Shown here piece by piece: positions 5,274 to 14,523 of a stretch of DNA of 22,716 nucleotides. The notes below the pieces were generated by a model that worked only from the letters and a program-made list of their open reading frames with translations, ran no database searches and was not told the origin of the DNA. Positions within the stretch are counted from its first letter, which is position 1. Each line of letters opens with the position of its first letter. The stretch covers positions 1 to 22,716 of the IMG/VR virus record IMGVR_UViG_3300006737_000239; one strand, written 5' to 3'. The position numbers were made by a program, and so were the translations under genes. Source of the stretch: a virus.

Positions 5274-5294
5274 TAAAAAAGACCCGAAGGTCTT
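5271..5294 (-). terminator. Intrinsic terminator after the helix-hairpin-helix gene
   Basis: Minus strand: stem AAGACC (5294..5289), loop TTCG, stem GGTCTT (5284..5279), then an uninterrupted T run (5280..5275) and ATTG. The C(UUCG)G loop is the exceptionally stable tetraloop common in bacterial terminators. The stem includes the last bases of the stop codon TAA (5295..5293) of the helix-hairpin-helix gene, so it ends the capsid transcript. The six-base-pair stem with two A-T pairs at its base suggests partial rather than complete termination. Confidence 0.85.
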
Positions 5295-5703
5295 AGACAC
5301 GGACAAGATCTGCAGCAAATACAGAATCCCAATCGACTCTTTTAATTTGTCTTAATTGCTCCAAACTATGAAAACGTTCTCCAGAAAGTGAAGTTTGAAG
5401 GTCTTTAATATCTTTTGCTGTTTTCATTCCAATCCCTTTAATGTGATCAGAAATCATACGTGCAGTTGCTGCATTAATATTTAAACGCGTATCAGTTGGA
5501 AAAGTTCTAGGCTCTTCTCCAGAAGCTGCATCTTTTACTTGCAGGCTTTTAACTTTAGTCGTTGCTTGTGCATCTTTTTCAATCTCAGTGTGATACACAG
5601 TAAAAATGCGACCGTCCTGGTCTTCAACCATGAACCAGTCGCCGTCATCCCATTGAGTAACAACTTTTACTCTTGTACCAGTCTTTTTGTGCTGATATAA
5701 CAT
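5293..5703 (-). CDS. Helix-hairpin-helix (ComEA-like) protein with N-terminal small beta domain
   Basis: Residues 1-45 look like a compact beta (SH3-like) domain (HKKTGTRVKVV, DGDWFMVEDQDGRIFTVYH). Residues about 48-68 are a polar linker. Residues about 70-136 carry a ComEA/competence-type helix-hairpin-helix unit: RLNINAATARMI, then the hairpin GIGMKTAKDIKDL, then FHSLEQLRQIKRVDWD, matching the LNINxA...GIGxxxAxxI...F.SLEDL..V order of the family. Such units bind the DNA backbone without sequence preference. The gene sits between abundant virion genes and the next transcription unit, so the product may touch packaged DNA or the portal/neck; that is inference. A strong hairpin (5705..5730) abuts its ATG, and no free Shine-Dalgarno sequence is visible, so translation is probably low. 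An intrinsic terminator follows its stop. Confidence 0.8.
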   Translation of the reverse strand: MLYQHKKTGTRVKVVTQWDDGDWFMVEDQDGRIFTVYHTEIEKDAQATTKVKSLQVKDAASGEEPRTFPTDTRLNINAATARMISDHIKGIGMKTAKDIKDLQTSLSGERFHSLEQLRQIKRVDWDSVFAADLVRV

Positions 5704-6544: not shown

Positions 6545-7714
6545 TCAAACAACACCATCATCAGAGATGAAGCTGAAAGCATTCGTAATGAAGTCTTTGT
6601 TCAGAACCTCAAAACCAGCATACAGCTGCCAAATTAGAATGATAAAGCGTGAGAAATCATCATTGTTGTTGATCAAAACTTGTGCGTTCGGACCGCCAAT
6701 TCCAATGCCGATTGCCTGAGGACCGAAGAAGAAACCTTGAGCTACTTCTTCATCAGCAAAAGTATTAGCACCATCAGAAGCGAACGTAGCACTAACAGTC
6801 TTGTTGGGGAAGTTAGTGGACTCGAAGAATTTAACACCTTCGAATTGAACACCAGTAGGCATCACAGGCTCACCAGCCAGGAAATAACCCTGACCAGCTT
6901 GAGGACCCATGTAGAAGCTGGAGTTGTTAGGCATCATGGGATTAGCCATGTACATGCCTTGACCGGGGTTGCCGCTATAACGAGCAATCTCACGGAAATC
7001 TTCGTCACGACGCAAGTGCATCATGAAGACAGGATCACAAATACAACGATACAGACCATCAGCGAAGGTAGGAACGTTGCGCTTACGCAGATCCTTAACA
7101 ACTTCTAACAAGTCAGTACGAACAGAGAACTGTTGAACTTGACCGGTGTACTCAGCAGCTGTGTAAGAAATGCGACCTTGTGCATCTTTTTCTTTGTCAC
7201 CAGCAAAGTAGTAACCACCTTGTGTAGTACCTGCTTTACCTTGTGCTTCTGCTTTAGCCAGTTCGTCAATAAAGACGCGATCACGCCAACGGCGATAATC
7301 ATCTAACAGCGTAAGGCTGCCGATGGACTGGTGGAACATGTTCAGGTTGCCGGTATCAAGCAGCAAACGCTGAGCAGTAATTAAAGTTTCCCGAGCAATT
7401 TTAAAAGTAGAAGGCTGGGTAGGATCAGCCGGATCTGCAGGACCAGTGTATTCCTTAAGCACCACCAGGACTTTCTCCTTGGTGATGTTACGGCTGTTGG
7501 CTGTACCAATTGTCTGATCTGAGATACGCTCACGGCTATCCTTTGTGCCGGGAGATCCCCAGAACTTGTAGCGATCTAACTGAACAGTTTGTCCAGGCTG
7601 TGAGGTAAAGTCATGTACGACTACAGGCTCAACAGCCATTTCACAAATATATGCAGGATGCGGACGGTAAAGTTCCGCTCCTAAAATCTTAGGAAAATCA
7701 TTATCAAGGAACAT
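6545..7714 (-). CDS. Major capsid protein, HK97 fold (N4 gp56-like subset)
   Basis: A 389-residue protein of the length expected for a major capsid protein, downstream of portal and candidate scaffold. Features I associate with HK97-fold coat proteins of the N4 gp56-like group are QPGQTVQLDRYKFWG (residues about 39-53), the dimension-setting segment DPVFMMHLRRDEDFREI (about 227-243), the VKFFESTNFP strand (about 294-303) and a long helical central part (about 103-155). The C-terminus (YAGFEVLNKDFITNAFSFIS) is a typical P-domain strand pair. GAGG lies 8 nt upstream of the ATG. Codon choice is the most GC-ended among the larger non-overlapping genes, fitting very high expression. No N-terminal delta domain or protease site is seen, and no prohead protease gene is present nearby. 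Assignment to the exact family is by eye. Confidence 0.8.
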   Translation of the reverse strand: MFLDNDFPKILGAELYRPHPAYICEMAVEPVVVHDFTSQPGQTVQLDRYKFWGSPGTKDSRERISDQTIGTANSRNITKEKVLVVLKEYTGPADPADPTQPSTFKIARETLITAQRLLLDTGNLNMFHQSIGSLTLLDDYRRWRDRVFIDELAKAEAQGKAGTTQGGYYFAGDKEKDAQGRISYTAAEYTGQVQQFSVRTDLLEVVKDLRKRNVPTFADGLYRCICDPVFMMHLRRDEDFREIARYSGNPGQGMYMANPMMPNNSSFYMGPQAGQGYFLAGEPVMPTGVQFEGVKFFESTNFPNKTVSATFASDGANTFADEEVAQGFFFGPQAIGIGIGGPNAQVLINNNDDFSRFIILIWQLYAGFEVLNKDFITNAFSFISDDGVV

Positions 7715-8320: not shown

Positions 8321-9295
8321 TCATTCCATTACAAATAGTTTGTTAGCCATAACACGAGGATCGGCTTGGTTCACAATGCGCCAAGCTTGCGTCGGGTCAT
8401 AATCCATTTGCTGTTTAAAAGCACCCCAGAAATCTTGGGGCTGTTGAGGAGCTTCCTGTTGCGGAGGTGCAGGGAGACCAGGCATTTGTGCAGCAGCTGG
8501 TGCAGTGGGATAACCACGGGTTTCTAATTCCTGCTCAGACTCATACACAGGGTATGGACCGCGAGGACCAAAGAACTCCAAGGTGTAATCAGACAAGACA
8601 TCAGGATTCGTCAGAATCTCGTTGTATGCCAGATTTTCTTTGTGCTCATTAACAGAGAAGGCTGCATAGCCCATCAATGTGTCACTTGCCCTTTCTCCCC
8701 ATGCGACGGCGCTGTCCAGCATCCCTTCCAGATTTAGGGCGTACTGATTCAGAATCGCTGGAGCCTCTGTCCCGTAGTTCGCTACTACCATCCGGCTCTC
8801 CGGACTCCACCCCAGAACCTGGGCCACGTCCTCCAAGGAGCTGACCGAGTAAGTTTGGGAAGAGTTGGGCGAGGATGTCTGGCTTGCTTGCCAGGTCGGG
8901 GCTGCCGATGGTGCCGAGGTCTGTTGGTACTGCGGAGGAGCCTGTGACTCCCAGTTGCCCTGGGTATACGGACTCGCTGCCGGAGCCTGGACCGGTGATG
9001 GCGCTGCCTGGGACGGGGAGCCCTGTTGGCCCAGAAGTCCCACTACTTGACTGAACGCCGACTCCCATGGATTGGCCTGTGGTGCTGCCGGGGAAGGGGG
9101 GACGAATGCTGACGGGGCGGATTGGTAATTGGGGGCTGCCTGAGGTGCCGCCTGGGGCGCCGCCTGGGGGTAAGCTACTCCGGCCTGGCTCGCCTGAACC
9201 GGGGTTGTTGGCTGAGGGGCTGCTGCCACGTAGCTGCTTGGGGCCACGGATGGTTGGCTCATCTGTGGGGTCGATTGGACGGTAGCGTCCTGCAT
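8321..9295 (-). CDS. Candidate scaffolding protein, 324 aa, started inside the portal gene
   Basis: Residues 1-150 are low-complexity Pro/Ala/Gln/Ser-rich, including a (PQAA)3 run near residues 43-54. Residues about 152-324 look ordered and helical, with VSSLEDVAQVLGWSPE and acidic helices up to the C-terminal RVMANKLFVME. Position between portal and capsid, an elongated disordered-plus-helical build and no other scaffold candidate suggest a scaffolding role; this is inference. The start is well supported: AAAAGGAG (9310..9303) lies 7 nt before the ATG although both are inside the portal reading frame. The first 205 residues are encoded by DNA that also encodes the last 204 residues of the portal frame, in the +1 phase. 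Base composition changes sharply to GC-rich across that shared stretch. The unique 3' part has ordinary composition. Confidence 0.85.
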   Translation of the reverse strand: MQDATVQSTPQMSQPSVAPSSYVAAAPQPTTPVQASQAGVAYPQAAPQAAPQAAPNYQSAPSAFVPPSPAAPQANPWESAFSQVVGLLGQQGSPSQAAPSPVQAPAASPYTQGNWESQAPPQYQQTSAPSAAPTWQASQTSSPNSSQTYSVSSLEDVAQVLGWSPESRMVVANYGTEAPAILNQYALNLEGMLDSAVAWGERASDTLMGYAAFSVNEHKENLAYNEILTNPDVLSDYTLEFFGPRGPYPVYESEQELETRGYPTAPAAAQMPGLPAPPQQEAPQQPQDFWGAFKQQMDYDPTQAWRIVNQADPRVMANKLFVME

Positions 9296-11072
9296 AACTC
9301 ATCTCCTTTTGTAATGCTTCTAGAGTTCGATACAGATAGGGAGTGAGGTCCAAGCGTGGATCTGCAGCCATTGGCAGATCGGGAGCTTGTGGATGTGGGG
9401 TCTGCATCATTCCCGCAACCAAACTAGAGAACTTGTTATAAGCACCCTGTAATTCACCGACCATTCTGAAGGGAAAGCCAGAAAGCATTTCCGCTCTTTC
9501 TTCATCTGTTTTAGATGGAAAAAGATACTTCAATGCTTCTATACTATCAACTCCAAGCTCTTGTAAATTTCTGACAACAATTGAATTATTTAAAATATCT
9601 TGTGTTGACTCTTCATATACAGGACCTAACCAACGCCAATTCATAGTTACATCTCCGTCTGGTATTAATCCTTTAACACCAGGCGGTACCATTTGAGCTT
9701 TAATTAAAGCCTGCATGATTTGCTTCATTTGACCTTCAAACTGTTTTAAAGCTTGTTGATAACCCGCTTTCTCTTCTATCGAAGCTTCTTCTGTTGGAGT
9801 AATTGGTTTTTCAATACCTGCTACAGCAGCTAAAGTATCTTTGAACATCGTTTCTTCCATGAAGATAATGAGTTCTAAACATCTGCAAATTCCATGCTCA
9901 TAAATTGCATTTGCTTTCTTTTTGCTGGTGGCCGCCACACGACCAAACAAACTTTTATATTCGGTAGCAGTAACACCTGCACTGATTGAAAGTTCATCTA
10001 CACCTCCTAAAGCAGTACGAATTTCTTCTCTAAATTGTCTAACAAATGCATTCTGATCACCAGAGATTGCATCAGGAACAATATAACCAACACGATCATT
10101 AGGTTCTAAATTTGCAATAACTCTTGGTACACGAATACTTCCATCTACACTGCTACGTGAAATTGGATCTTGCTTAAACGTAGAAGATGATAAAGGCGAC
10201 ATACTCTGAAAACCAGAGTTAGCTGCAATAGAAGGACGTTGAGCAGCACCATCATTACCACTTTCAATTAGGTCAGTTTTAGGTCTAGAAGATAATAAAG
10301 TTGGATTACCAAAAAACTGTAAGTTTTTACGCATTGTGCGTACTAACTCATCATGCAAACAAATCTGACTTGCAAATTGATCAAACTCTCCATTGCCTTC
10401 CATGGAGAATCCTTTAGGATTATTAAAAATTTCAACACAAGGAATATAACCTAATTCATTTGGAAACTTATCAGTTTTACCTGGCATTGTAGTGGCAATA
10501 TTTTCAAATGACATTTCGCCATCAGAATGAGTTTCTTCAATCTCTAATGGCCTAATTGAAAGACGAATATATTTTTTACGGCCAGGAGTTTCTCTAGGTC
10601 CATGTGTATTGCCTCCTGTTAGTTGGCCCATTTCGATGCCACCATAACCTACATCTGCCATACCAGCAGATGCATTTTGTTTTACTTTATAGCTATAAAT
10701 AATAACAACTTCTTCTAGCTCACCATCAACATTGTAGTAACTACGATATTCATAATTACGGAAATAATAGAGACGATAGTTATTTTCAGTAGGTCGAATA
10801 TAAAACAACCCTTTGCCATCACATAAAAAATAATCCCAAATACTATCTAATCGAATATCAAGCTTATTATATTTAGCAACTTTTTTAATAAAGTCACCAC
10901 GCTGTTGACCAAAGTTATCCTGTGATGGAAAAAATTCAACACCCTGACGGATGCCGAACAATTTCATTTGTGCAATGTGAGAAGAGACAATGCCACTATC
11001 TACTTGTGCGTCGCCATTGCGTTCGATATAAGCATCAATAATTTCTTTCAGGCGATTATTCGTGTCTGACAC
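8682..11072 (-). CDS. Portal protein with an overprinted Gly/Ser/Pro-rich C-terminal extension
   Basis: A 796-residue protein upstream of the candidate scaffold and capsid genes and downstream of the terminase: the canonical portal position. The first roughly 590 residues show portal-like alternation of helical and beta segments, including a long wing/stem region with MRKNLQFFGNPTLL (about 248-261), QFREEIRTALGGVDELS and KANAIYEHGICRCLELIIFM. Residues about 593-796 are a disordered Gly/Ser/Pro-rich tail ending in a basic RRRMGRKGK. This tail is read from the same DNA as the first 205 residues of 8321..9295. Portals usually end soon after their helical crown, so the tail is probably a later addition. 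The start is GTG (11072..11070), sharing one base with the upstream stop TAG (TAGTG). Family assignment rests on context and general build, not on a signature motif. Confidence 0.8.
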   Translation of the reverse strand: MSDTNNRLKEIIDAYIERNGDAQVDSGIVSSHIAQMKLFGIRQGVEFFPSQDNFGQQRGDFIKKVAKYNKLDIRLDSIWDYFLCDGKGLFYIRPTENNYRLYYFRNYEYRSYYNVDGELEEVVIIYSYKVKQNASAGMADVGYGGIEMGQLTGGNTHGPRETPGRKKYIRLSIRPLEIEETHSDGEMSFENIATTMPGKTDKFPNELGYIPCVEIFNNPKGFSMEGNGEFDQFASQICLHDELVRTMRKNLQFFGNPTLLSSRPKTDLIESGNDGAAQRPSIAANSGFQSMSPLSSSTFKQDPISRSSVDGSIRVPRVIANLEPNDRVGYIVPDAISGDQNAFVRQFREEIRTALGGVDELSISAGVTATEYKSLFGRVAATSKKKANAIYEHGICRCLELIIFMEETMFKDTLAAVAGIEKPITPTEEASIEEKAGYQQALKQFEGQMKQIMQALIKAQMVPPGVKGLIPDGDVTMNWRWLGPVYEESTQDILNNSIVVRNLQELGVDSIEALKYLFPSKTDEERAEMLSGFPFRMVGELQGAYNKFSSLVAGMMQTPHPQAPDLPMAADPRLDLTPYLYRTLEALQKEMSYAGRYRPIDPTDEPTIRGPKQLRGSSPSANNPGSGEPGRSSLPPGGAPGGTSGSPQLPIRPVSIRPPFPGSTTGQSMGVGVQSSSGTSGPTGLPVPGSAITGPGSGSESVYPGQLGVTGSSAVPTDLGTIGSPDLASKPDILAQLFPNLLGQLLGGRGPGSGVESGEPDGSSELRDRGSSDSESVRPKSGRDAGQRRRMGRKGK
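9303..9310 (-). promoter_or_regulatory. Strong Shine-Dalgarno sequence inside the portal gene
   Basis: Minus strand AAAAGGAG with a 7-nt spacer to the ATG at 9295..9293. It is among the strongest ribosome binding sites in the window and decides that 8321..9295 is translated independently, not by frameshifting from the portal frame. Confidence 0.8.
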
Positions 11073-12996: not shown

Positions 12997-14523
12997 TTAA
13001 AAGTCCAGTTGAAGTTTTCCTCGCTTCATTAGTCCATTGACTAACCAAACTAGAGCATCTACACAATCGTCATGTGAACTAACACCAAAATTTGTTAGCT
13101 CTTCAAACATCGTTGTAAAGTTTCTATACCTGTTAAATATTATTTTACGATCTTCAAACATTCCCATAATCCCTCTAAAACGTGCTAACTTATCTGCACG
13201 AAATCCTTTGACTGGATGCCAAATAAGATTATATAAATTTTCTTGATTTAAACAAACACGTTTAAAGTCTGCTTCTAAAGACGCTTGATACTGAACAGCC
13301 TCTGACCAAATATCACAAGTTGAATAAGTGGGAAACCAAATACCATTATCTTGCTTTCCAATAACAGACCAATCATACAAAAGTTCTTTCATTGCATCTA
13401 ATTTTTCTAAATTACCCATAACACGTAGTCTTCGATAATCAATAATATGGATTTTATCTCCTATTCGACCACCTAAAACCATAACCGTATAATCATTTTT
13501 TTCTTTTGTTCCGGCTGATAAATCAACCCCAACTCCTAAGCAATCAAATTCAGTTGCAATTTCTGCTTTAACTAAAAGCTCTGGTGCCAGCGATAGTTCA
13601 TTCTGTCTAACGATTTGATTCATATATTGAAACGAAAAAGCAATAGGAGCTTGTCTTTTCTTTTCCTTTAGGTAATCTAAAGACCACATTTCTGGCCAAT
13701 ATGACTCTTCATCGCCTGTCTCCTCGTTATTTAAGATCGCTGATAGGACGAGCTGCATCCAATTGTTATTCGGACAAAATGTTGTTGAATGAATATCATC
13801 ATGACGGAATCGTGTTCCCAAACAAATCGCACGGCCCCCTTCAAACATGGTTGGAGCGATCACCGCATTCCAATTATCTTCCATCATCTTACGGATGTCA
13901 GGGTTACCAATATCAGCAGCAGACTTCACAGGGTCATCAATAATAACTAACTGTGAACGTTTAGAAGTCACTGATCCTTTAAGACCTGCTGCACATAATG
14001 TAAATTGCTCTTCACCCGTTGTATCTATGCCAGCAAATTTATGATCAATAGACCAATACTCATTGCTAGTTACATTTTTAAGTAGTTTGACTTTAGGAAA
14101 TACTTCTTGGTATCGCTTAGATTCAATGATTCGTTTAATTGTTGCAGACTTAGATCTAGCAATATCAACTGTATAACTTAGATAAAGAATTTGCAGAGGT
14201 TTTCCAGCTTGTGTATGAATACCAATTGCCCATGCTGTAAACAAACCTAAAACAGTAGATTTAGCTGATCCTCTGGGACCTAATAAATCTATATTTGGTC
14301 CTGCAATTTTAGTTAGACAAGAGCTATTTGTATTTGTTACAAGTTGTTTGTGCCATTCTTTATGGTGCTCTGCTGGAGGTTTATCTGCTACATATTCACA
14401 AAAGAATCCAAAATCATCTCTTGCTTTTTCTAGAAGATGTTCATCTTTACTTTTGCGTACACGATGATTTTTAGCCGCTGCTTGTGCATTACGGCGATAC
14501 GCTAAGTGCAGATGAGAAGCCAC
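12997..14523 (-). CDS. terL: Terminase large subunit (packaging ATPase and nuclease)
   Basis: The motor that threads phage DNA into the prohead and cuts it. ATPase domain: Walker A GPRGSAKST at residues 82-90, Walker B LVIIDD at 192-197 with the catalytic acid following, and a coupling motif LGTRFR at 235-240. Nuclease (RNase H-like) domain: first aspartate D334 in GVGVDLSAGT, a second candidate D404 in STCDIW, and a C-terminal SSHDDCVDAL (483-492) with D485/D486/D489. At 508 residues it is of normal length and looks intact. The start is GTG (14523..14521), sharing one base with the TAG of the upstream small gene (TAGTG). The ordering candidate small terminase, two small genes, large terminase, then portal further on is usual apart from the inserted small genes. 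Identity is secure; the packaging type (cos, pac) cannot be read off. Confidence 0.97.
   Translation of the reverse strand: MASHLHLAYRRNAQAAAKNHRVRKSKDEHLLEKARDDFGFFCEYVADKPPAEHHKEWHKQLVTNTNSSCLTKIAGPNIDLLGPRGSAKSTVLGLFTAWAIGIHTQAGKPLQILYLSYTVDIARSKSATIKRIIESKRYQEVFPKVKLLKNVTSNEYWSIDHKFAGIDTTGEEQFTLCAAGLKGSVTSKRSQLVIIDDPVKSAADIGNPDIRKMMEDNWNAVIAPTMFEGGRAICLGTRFRHDDIHSTTFCPNNNWMQLVLSAILNNEETGDEESYWPEMWSLDYLKEKKRQAPIAFSFQYMNQIVRQNELSLAPELLVKAEIATEFDCLGVGVDLSAGTKEKNDYTVMVLGGRIGDKIHIIDYRRLRVMGNLEKLDAMKELLYDWSVIGKQDNGIWFPTYSTCDIWSEAVQYQASLEADFKRVCLNQENLYNLIWHPVKGFRADKLARFRGIMGMFEDRKIIFNRYRNFTTMFEELTNFGVSSHDDCVDALVWLVNGLMKRGKLQLDF

Follow-up and report, generated by a model that had tools for sequence, protein, structure and literature searches.

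Out-of-frame overprinting of one gene by another is established in viruses, with the A/B and D/E genes of phiX174 and Rz/Rz1 of phage lambda as examples. In lambda C/Nu3-type systems, a scaffold is produced from an internal start within another head gene, and because the reading frame is the same the scaffold corresponds to part of the larger product. In T7, a gap of ~100 nt with a promoter lies between the portal gene gp8 and gp9; the portal gene of P-SSP7 shares 1 nt with the scaffold gene. The P22 portal (725 aa) possesses a C-terminal barrel, formed by residues 601-725, that lies inside the head and is unstructured in the procapsid (PMC12005531). Surveys show that gene overlaps in DNA viruses are generally short: the median genome-mean overlap is 15.6 nt, and +2 overlaps of dsDNA viruses mostly measure 1 or 4 nt (PMC8903798). 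In tailed dsDNA phages, whose genomes are not usually regarded as pressed for space, it is unusual for essential structural genes to share a long same-strand overlap. The literature that we searched, which did not include the S-EIV1 genome paper, holds no report of an out-of-frame overlap between portal and scaffold.

Here, we describe such a locus in a fragment of an S-EIV1-like cyanophage. The window, the whole 22.7-kb stretch of DNA that was analysed (22,716 nt, IMG/VR record IMGVR_UViG_3300006737_000239), encodes a portal gene (frame A) whose 3' part is overprinted by the next gene (frame B). Sequence comparisons and predicted folds make it likely, in our judgement, that this overlap is genuine, old and family-wide; that frame A encodes a portal with a flexible tail of ~200 residues; and that B, the next head gene, is most likely the scaffold and has its own initiation. 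Both frames are shown to be under selection.

Layout and conservation of the overlap

A sequence-only reading of the window had described a 614-nt overlap with both frames open, spanning portal residues 593-796, and had placed AAAAGGAG 7 nt ahead of B's ATG. The open reading frame listing confirms the overlap and its coordinates (Table 1), and the residue range and the spacing also hold. The same reading had noted that the DNA becomes GC-rich here: window GC is 0.59-0.68 in 8650-9400 versus 0.33-0.46 upstream, and the 132 complete loci average 0.61 within the overlap, 0.51 over the remainder of B and 0.44 in the portal core. AAAAGGAG and the B start codon are part of an invariant block, AAAAGGAGATGAG[TC]TATGCAGGACGCT, found at the same position in all 158 loci whose sequence extends to the site. 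These loci comprise the window, S-EIV1 and IMG/VR contigs, and were retrieved with the portal core only, among the matches listed. In every one of the 158, a stop codon stands in the B frame two codons ahead of the ATG, and B is thus unable to start farther upstream in frame. Just past the B start codon lies a 5-bp hairpin, GGACG-CUAC-CGUCC (window 9278-9291, minus strand), whose stem is invariant in 78 diverse loci; amino acids conserved in both frames may be enough to cause this invariance.

Table 1. Window coordinates and strand of the features discussed
Feature	Coordinates	Strand	Basis or remarks
Frame A, portal protein, 796 aa, GTG start	8682..11072	-	Open reading frame; core residues 1 to ~597 ordered, tail ~598-796
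Frame B, probable scaffolding protein, 324 aa, ATG start	8321..9295	-	Open reading frame; position; composition; predicted helices
Dual-coding overlap, 614 nt, B in frame +1 relative to A	8682..9295	-	Both frames open, both under purifying selection
AAAAGGAG, ribosome-binding site of B	9303..9310	-	Within portal codons LQKEM; 158/158 loci
Portal-tail motif IGSxDLxxxPxLLxQLFPNLL, A residues 722-741	8850..8909	-	Conserved; frame B relaxed beneath
Conserved B segment NPWESAFNKVVNLL, B residues 75-88	9032..9073	-	Predicted helix, inside overlap
Long predicted B helix, residues 178-229	8609..8764	-	Begins inside overlap; pLDDT 75-89 for most
Conserved B C-terminus, predicted helical, residues 289-320	8336..8431	-	Outside overlap; invariant residues
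Portal stretch of low synonymous rate, ~270 nt	9296..9565	-	Excess predicted RNA structure; adjoins B start
Terminase large subunit	12997..14523	-	Upstream of portal; PF17289 E 5.6e-10; phrog_38 E 6e-75
Major capsid protein	6545..7714	-	Downstream, same block; phrog_1357 major head protein E 1e-14

Synechococcus phage S-EIV1 (KJ410740) is the sole close relative of the window's portal, B, capsid and terminase in 50,697 phage records, and a search of those records for relatives beyond the S-EIV1-like family, which might have a portal lacking the tail, gave none even at E 10. IMG/VR holds hundreds of relatives (at least ~600 matches in each of two similarity scans), and the viral contigs among the matches listed by these scans are close relatives; GTDB genomes contain one similar locus, likewise carrying the overlap. 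Comparison of portal C-termini in these relatives shows that the overlap is kept. Both frames are open in 132/132 complete loci fetched with the portal core (among the matches listed), where its length is 497-644 nt and always of the form 3n+2. A scan with the start-site pattern, which is independent evidence for frame openness only, since B's start is what the scan selects, gave 90 more complete loci, some of them on contigs already in the portal-core set. Here both frames are open in 89/90, with overlaps of up to 662 nt, and the two sets combined hold 175 distinct overlap sequences. A portal frame closed near residue 600 was looked for in the loci listed and not found. In the sole exception among the 90, L170, both frames are truncated by what looks like a shift of one base within the overlap; this is likely an indel or an assembly or sequencing error. 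One locus (L107/L218), whose portal stop falls within the last ~10 nt of the contig, was left out.

The window's gene order is portal, B, a 172-aa gene and the major capsid protein. Amid the head and tail genes, a 136-aa protein (window 5293-5703, minus strand) matches the helix-hairpin-helix entry PF12836 weakly, at an E of 3e-5 that does not reach the curated cut-off. In S-EIV1, the terminase large subunit (54080-56620; L082 5535-8075) contains an in-frame insertion of ~337 aa with a Pfam Intein_splicing match (E 1.4e-11) that is absent from the window's terminase. The S-EIV1 major capsid gene, 60859-62007 (+), is misannotated in GenBank (region 60784-62010; L082 12239-13465), where one minus-strand and one short plus-strand CDS cover it. 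The S-EIV1 portal is annotated through the overlap, and B is annotated from an internal start only (AHV82225.1, 59863-60264). Full-length B occupies about 59287-60264 (L082 10742-11719), so the annotation loses the overprinted N-terminal part. Standard annotation thus hides such genes, in this case cutting the second one to its last 133 residues.

Identity and history of the two proteins

Frame A lies between the terminase and capsid genes and falls in phrog_20475 (head and packaging, E 5e-250). A gp8-type profile built from the T7 and P-SSP7 portals (two sequences) does not match it, with an hhalign probability of 0.4%. Its AlphaFold2 model, made from 59 family sequences, is of low confidence (mean pLDDT 44.6). 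When this model is compared with the PDB by Foldseek, the first 44 matches are all portals or portal-containing complexes, T7 gp8 included, and the best of them, to 8i4m from cyanophage P-SCSP1u, reaches E 8e-6 for the low-confidence model. In BFVD, portal and head-to-tail connector proteins make up most of the named matches below E 1e-3. By comparison of predicted folds, then, frame A is a portal, as the sequence-only reading had proposed. The predicted model also bears out its view that the portal carries an extra, disordered tail. The last predicted core helix spans residues 577-595, and in the final ~200 residues pLDDT is mostly below 50, with weak helices at 731-737 and 741-745. The tail is Gly/Ser/Pro/Arg-rich and predicted to be disordered, with short conserved motifs; in one of them (Table 1), residues G723, D726, P731, Q736, L737, F738 and P739 are invariant in 60 sequences.

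Frame B encodes a protein whose residues 1-150 are disordered and Pro/Gln/Ala/Ser-rich, with one predicted helix at 76-88. We propose that B is probably the scaffold, given its position, its composition and its predicted helices. These agree with the earlier assignment of B as scaffold; matches in sequence or fold do not add to it, as the B model (mean pLDDT 57) finds no PDB counterpart, neither sequence profile nor fold yields a scaffold match, and a T7-type scaffold profile (two sequences) does not match B. The overlap could instead be real while B is some other protein of the head or inner core, or a chaperone of assembly, with the 172-aa gene or another protein serving as scaffold. We regard this as rather unlikely, though to be taken seriously: it fits the lack of a profile or fold match to a scaffold, and one gene, that of 172 aa, separates B from the capsid gene. 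However, B's place after the portal, its Pro/Gln/Ala-rich disordered N-terminus, its predicted long helix and its conserved C-terminus, predicted to be helical, fit scaffolds, and in T7 and P-SSP7 the scaffold directly follows the portal.

In the likeliest history, the overlap would have arisen from a P-SSP7-like arrangement in which an ancestral portal stop lay next to the scaffold start, the portal then being extended across B's disordered N-terminus. This would also be the simpler course, because the portal's last predicted helix ends where B begins. The statement in the sequence-only reading that the portal lost its stop goes further than the data: no relative without the portal/B overlap, which would set the direction, was found in the phage records, in GTDB or among the IMG/VR matches listed, and codon usage within the overlap gives no clear sign of which frame came first. 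That same neutrality of codon usage leaves some room for the reverse order of events, in which the portal tail was already long and B gained an upstream start within it, so that B's N-terminal region is the newcomer. We hold this order to be possible and the less probable of the two, as B's start sits where the last predicted portal helix ends and the P-SSP7 and T7 gene boundary lies just after the portal.

Openness of, and selection on, the two frames

Both frames are open more than chance would allow. When B's amino acids are held fixed and synonymous codons are drawn anew from the part of B outside the overlap, frame A gains a mean of 11.6 stops and is never open; with the overlap's own codon usage the mean is 3.5 stops, and frame A is open in ~2% of draws. 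Conversely, with A's amino acids fixed and codons redrawn, B is open in 0.6-1.6% of draws. The third, unused frame of the overlap has a mean of 6.9 stops and a minimum of 2. Substitutions that are silent in B and close frame A are also depleted inside the overlap (~61 expected, 4 scored), while outside it the same class is seen 110 times with 91 expected. As none of the complete loci of the set has a stop, the 4 scored changes must lie in codons that differ at two or more bases.

We next classed substitutions by their effect on A and B in disjoint pairs, using a purpose-built counting scheme modelled on OLGenie rather than the published program. In the main test (44 disjoint pairs; the SS class in the overlap is small, at 177 sites), frame A in the overlap has a dNN/dSN of 0.68 (95% CI 0.53-0.85) and a dNS/dSS of 0.44 (0.32-0.66), and frame B has a dNN/dNS of 0.35 (0.27-0.44) and a dSN/dSS of 0.22 (0.16-0.34). 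Just past the portal stop, the frame-A ratios are 1.9 (1.40-2.63) for dNN/dSN and 1.24 (0.96-1.79) for dNS/dSS, as fits an untranslated frame. The conclusion is the same when close pairs are picked on the portal core or on the remainder of B and when transitions alone are counted, with ratios of 0.24-0.39 for A, 0.15-0.24 for B and a control above 1. Both frames are thus under purifying selection in the overlap, and frame A is under none just downstream. This was the overlap-aware rate test that the sequence-only reading had called for, and a portal frame free of constraint, which that reading named as evidence against itself, was sought both here and among stop-creating changes and was not found.

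Constraint alternates along the overlap, each frame being held where the other is free. Over B residues 122-149, which coincide with the conserved portal-tail motif of Table 1, frame A is constrained (NS 0.038) and frame B can vary (SN 0.137). The reverse applies over B residues 166-195, where B's predicted long helix begins: constraint falls on frame B (SN 0.010), and frame A is relaxed (NS 0.131). Over B residues 1-26, both frames are held.

These results weigh on two further explanations. In one, only B is functional in the overlap, where the portal happens to have no stop and its tail is tolerated readthrough, kept open by GC-rich composition; the tail is indeed of low complexity and predicted to be disordered, and high GC makes stops rarer. 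We nevertheless consider this very improbable, as A-nonsynonymous changes are suppressed in the overlap (dNS/dSS 0.24-0.44) and not just past it, frame A is the better conserved over B residues 122-149, the third frame and the synonymous redraws gain stops, and B-silent stop-creating changes are missing. Less probable still is that only the portal frame functions in the overlap and B begins farther in, as the GenBank annotation of S-EIV1 has it, since AAAAGGAG and the upstream ATG are invariant in 158 loci among the matches listed, B is under purifying selection within the overlap by both of its ratios (0.35 and 0.22), and NPWESAFNKVVNLL and the start of the long helix fall inside it.

The region upstream of B, a model, and known systems

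Synonymous divergence in the portal drops abruptly from ~0.45 per site in the core to 0.09-0.20 over the 90 codons that lead up to B's start. In close pairs, synonymous divergence is 0.038 in this 270-nt stretch versus 0.238 in the portal core; overall the synonymous rate is 4-6 times lower than in the remaining portal, with a sharp upstream boundary, and no similar dip was seen in the capsid, terminase and two other genes. A hidden open reading frame was ruled out: each of the five other frames is interrupted by stops in all loci, and none of them shows a preference for synonymous changes that are also silent in it. An artefact of recombination or pair selection was likewise ruled out, as pairs picked on the upstream portal core also show the stretch to be slow, and divergence within it rises in step with overall divergence. 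Compared with synonymous-codon permutations, the 270 nt have an excess of predicted folding (mean z -2.7, with 20/20 sequences below -1.64), and non-overlapping windows upstream have z of -0.1 to -1.65. The covariation of candidate helices is modest (two-sided changes at 8 pairs, pairing in 88.7% of cells, 0/500 shuffles as high), in a test that favours them because the structure was derived from the same sequences. RNAalifold consensus windows over the stretch give no stable conserved fold, and Rfam has no match to it. The leading idea, for which these data are suggestive only, is that a structured RNA element exerts control here; the cause may instead be a signal in the DNA, for instance a packaging site.

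In the model that we favour, some ribosomes would read the portal through the overlap, and others would initiate B at the internal Shine-Dalgarno site in the portal message. The portal tail may project from the crown into the head, by analogy with the C-terminal region of the P22 portal, and short tail motifs such as QLFPNLL may hold the scaffold, inner proteins or DNA. The earlier suggestion that the overlap links the amounts of portal and scaffold goes beyond these data: B has its own ribosome-binding site, and because its start lies ~600 nt from the A stop, the usual stop-start coupling is inapplicable. A more speculative proposal, to which we give a low probability, is that the overlap and the structured 270 nt form one module, in which the RNA element would set the frequency of B initiation and so fix the portal-to-scaffold ratio, and the QLFPNLL motif would dock the scaffold and nucleate head assembly. 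The overlap allows a direct test of the portal tail's part in scaffold recruitment. Moreover, because both frames are measurably constrained in alternating segments, it is a good natural case of two proteins sharing one sequence, conserved over hundreds of environmental contigs of a widespread and abundant cyanophage lineage.

The locus resembles the head block of T7 and P-SSP7 (gp8, gp9, gp10) in its order of portal, next head gene and capsid and in its podovirus-type portal fold. However, the T7 and P-SSP7 portals are ~520-540 aa long and lack the 200-residue tail, and we detected no sequence-profile similarity of A or B to these phages. Like the P22 portal, frame A has an extra C-terminal region beyond the crown; in P22 this region becomes a helical barrel, whereas the tail described here is Gly/Ser/Pro-rich, predicted to be disordered, and overprinted. 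In P22, the scaffold gene is not known to overprint this region. As in lambda C/Nu3, a probable scaffold would be made from an internal start inside a head gene, but here the frames differ, and the two products are therefore unrelated. The locus also resembles phiX174 A/B and D/E and lambda Rz/Rz1, which likewise encode two conserved proteins in two frames, the second with its own start. What sets it apart from these is a terminal overlap of ~500-660 nt that joins two head-assembly genes of a tailed dsDNA phage.
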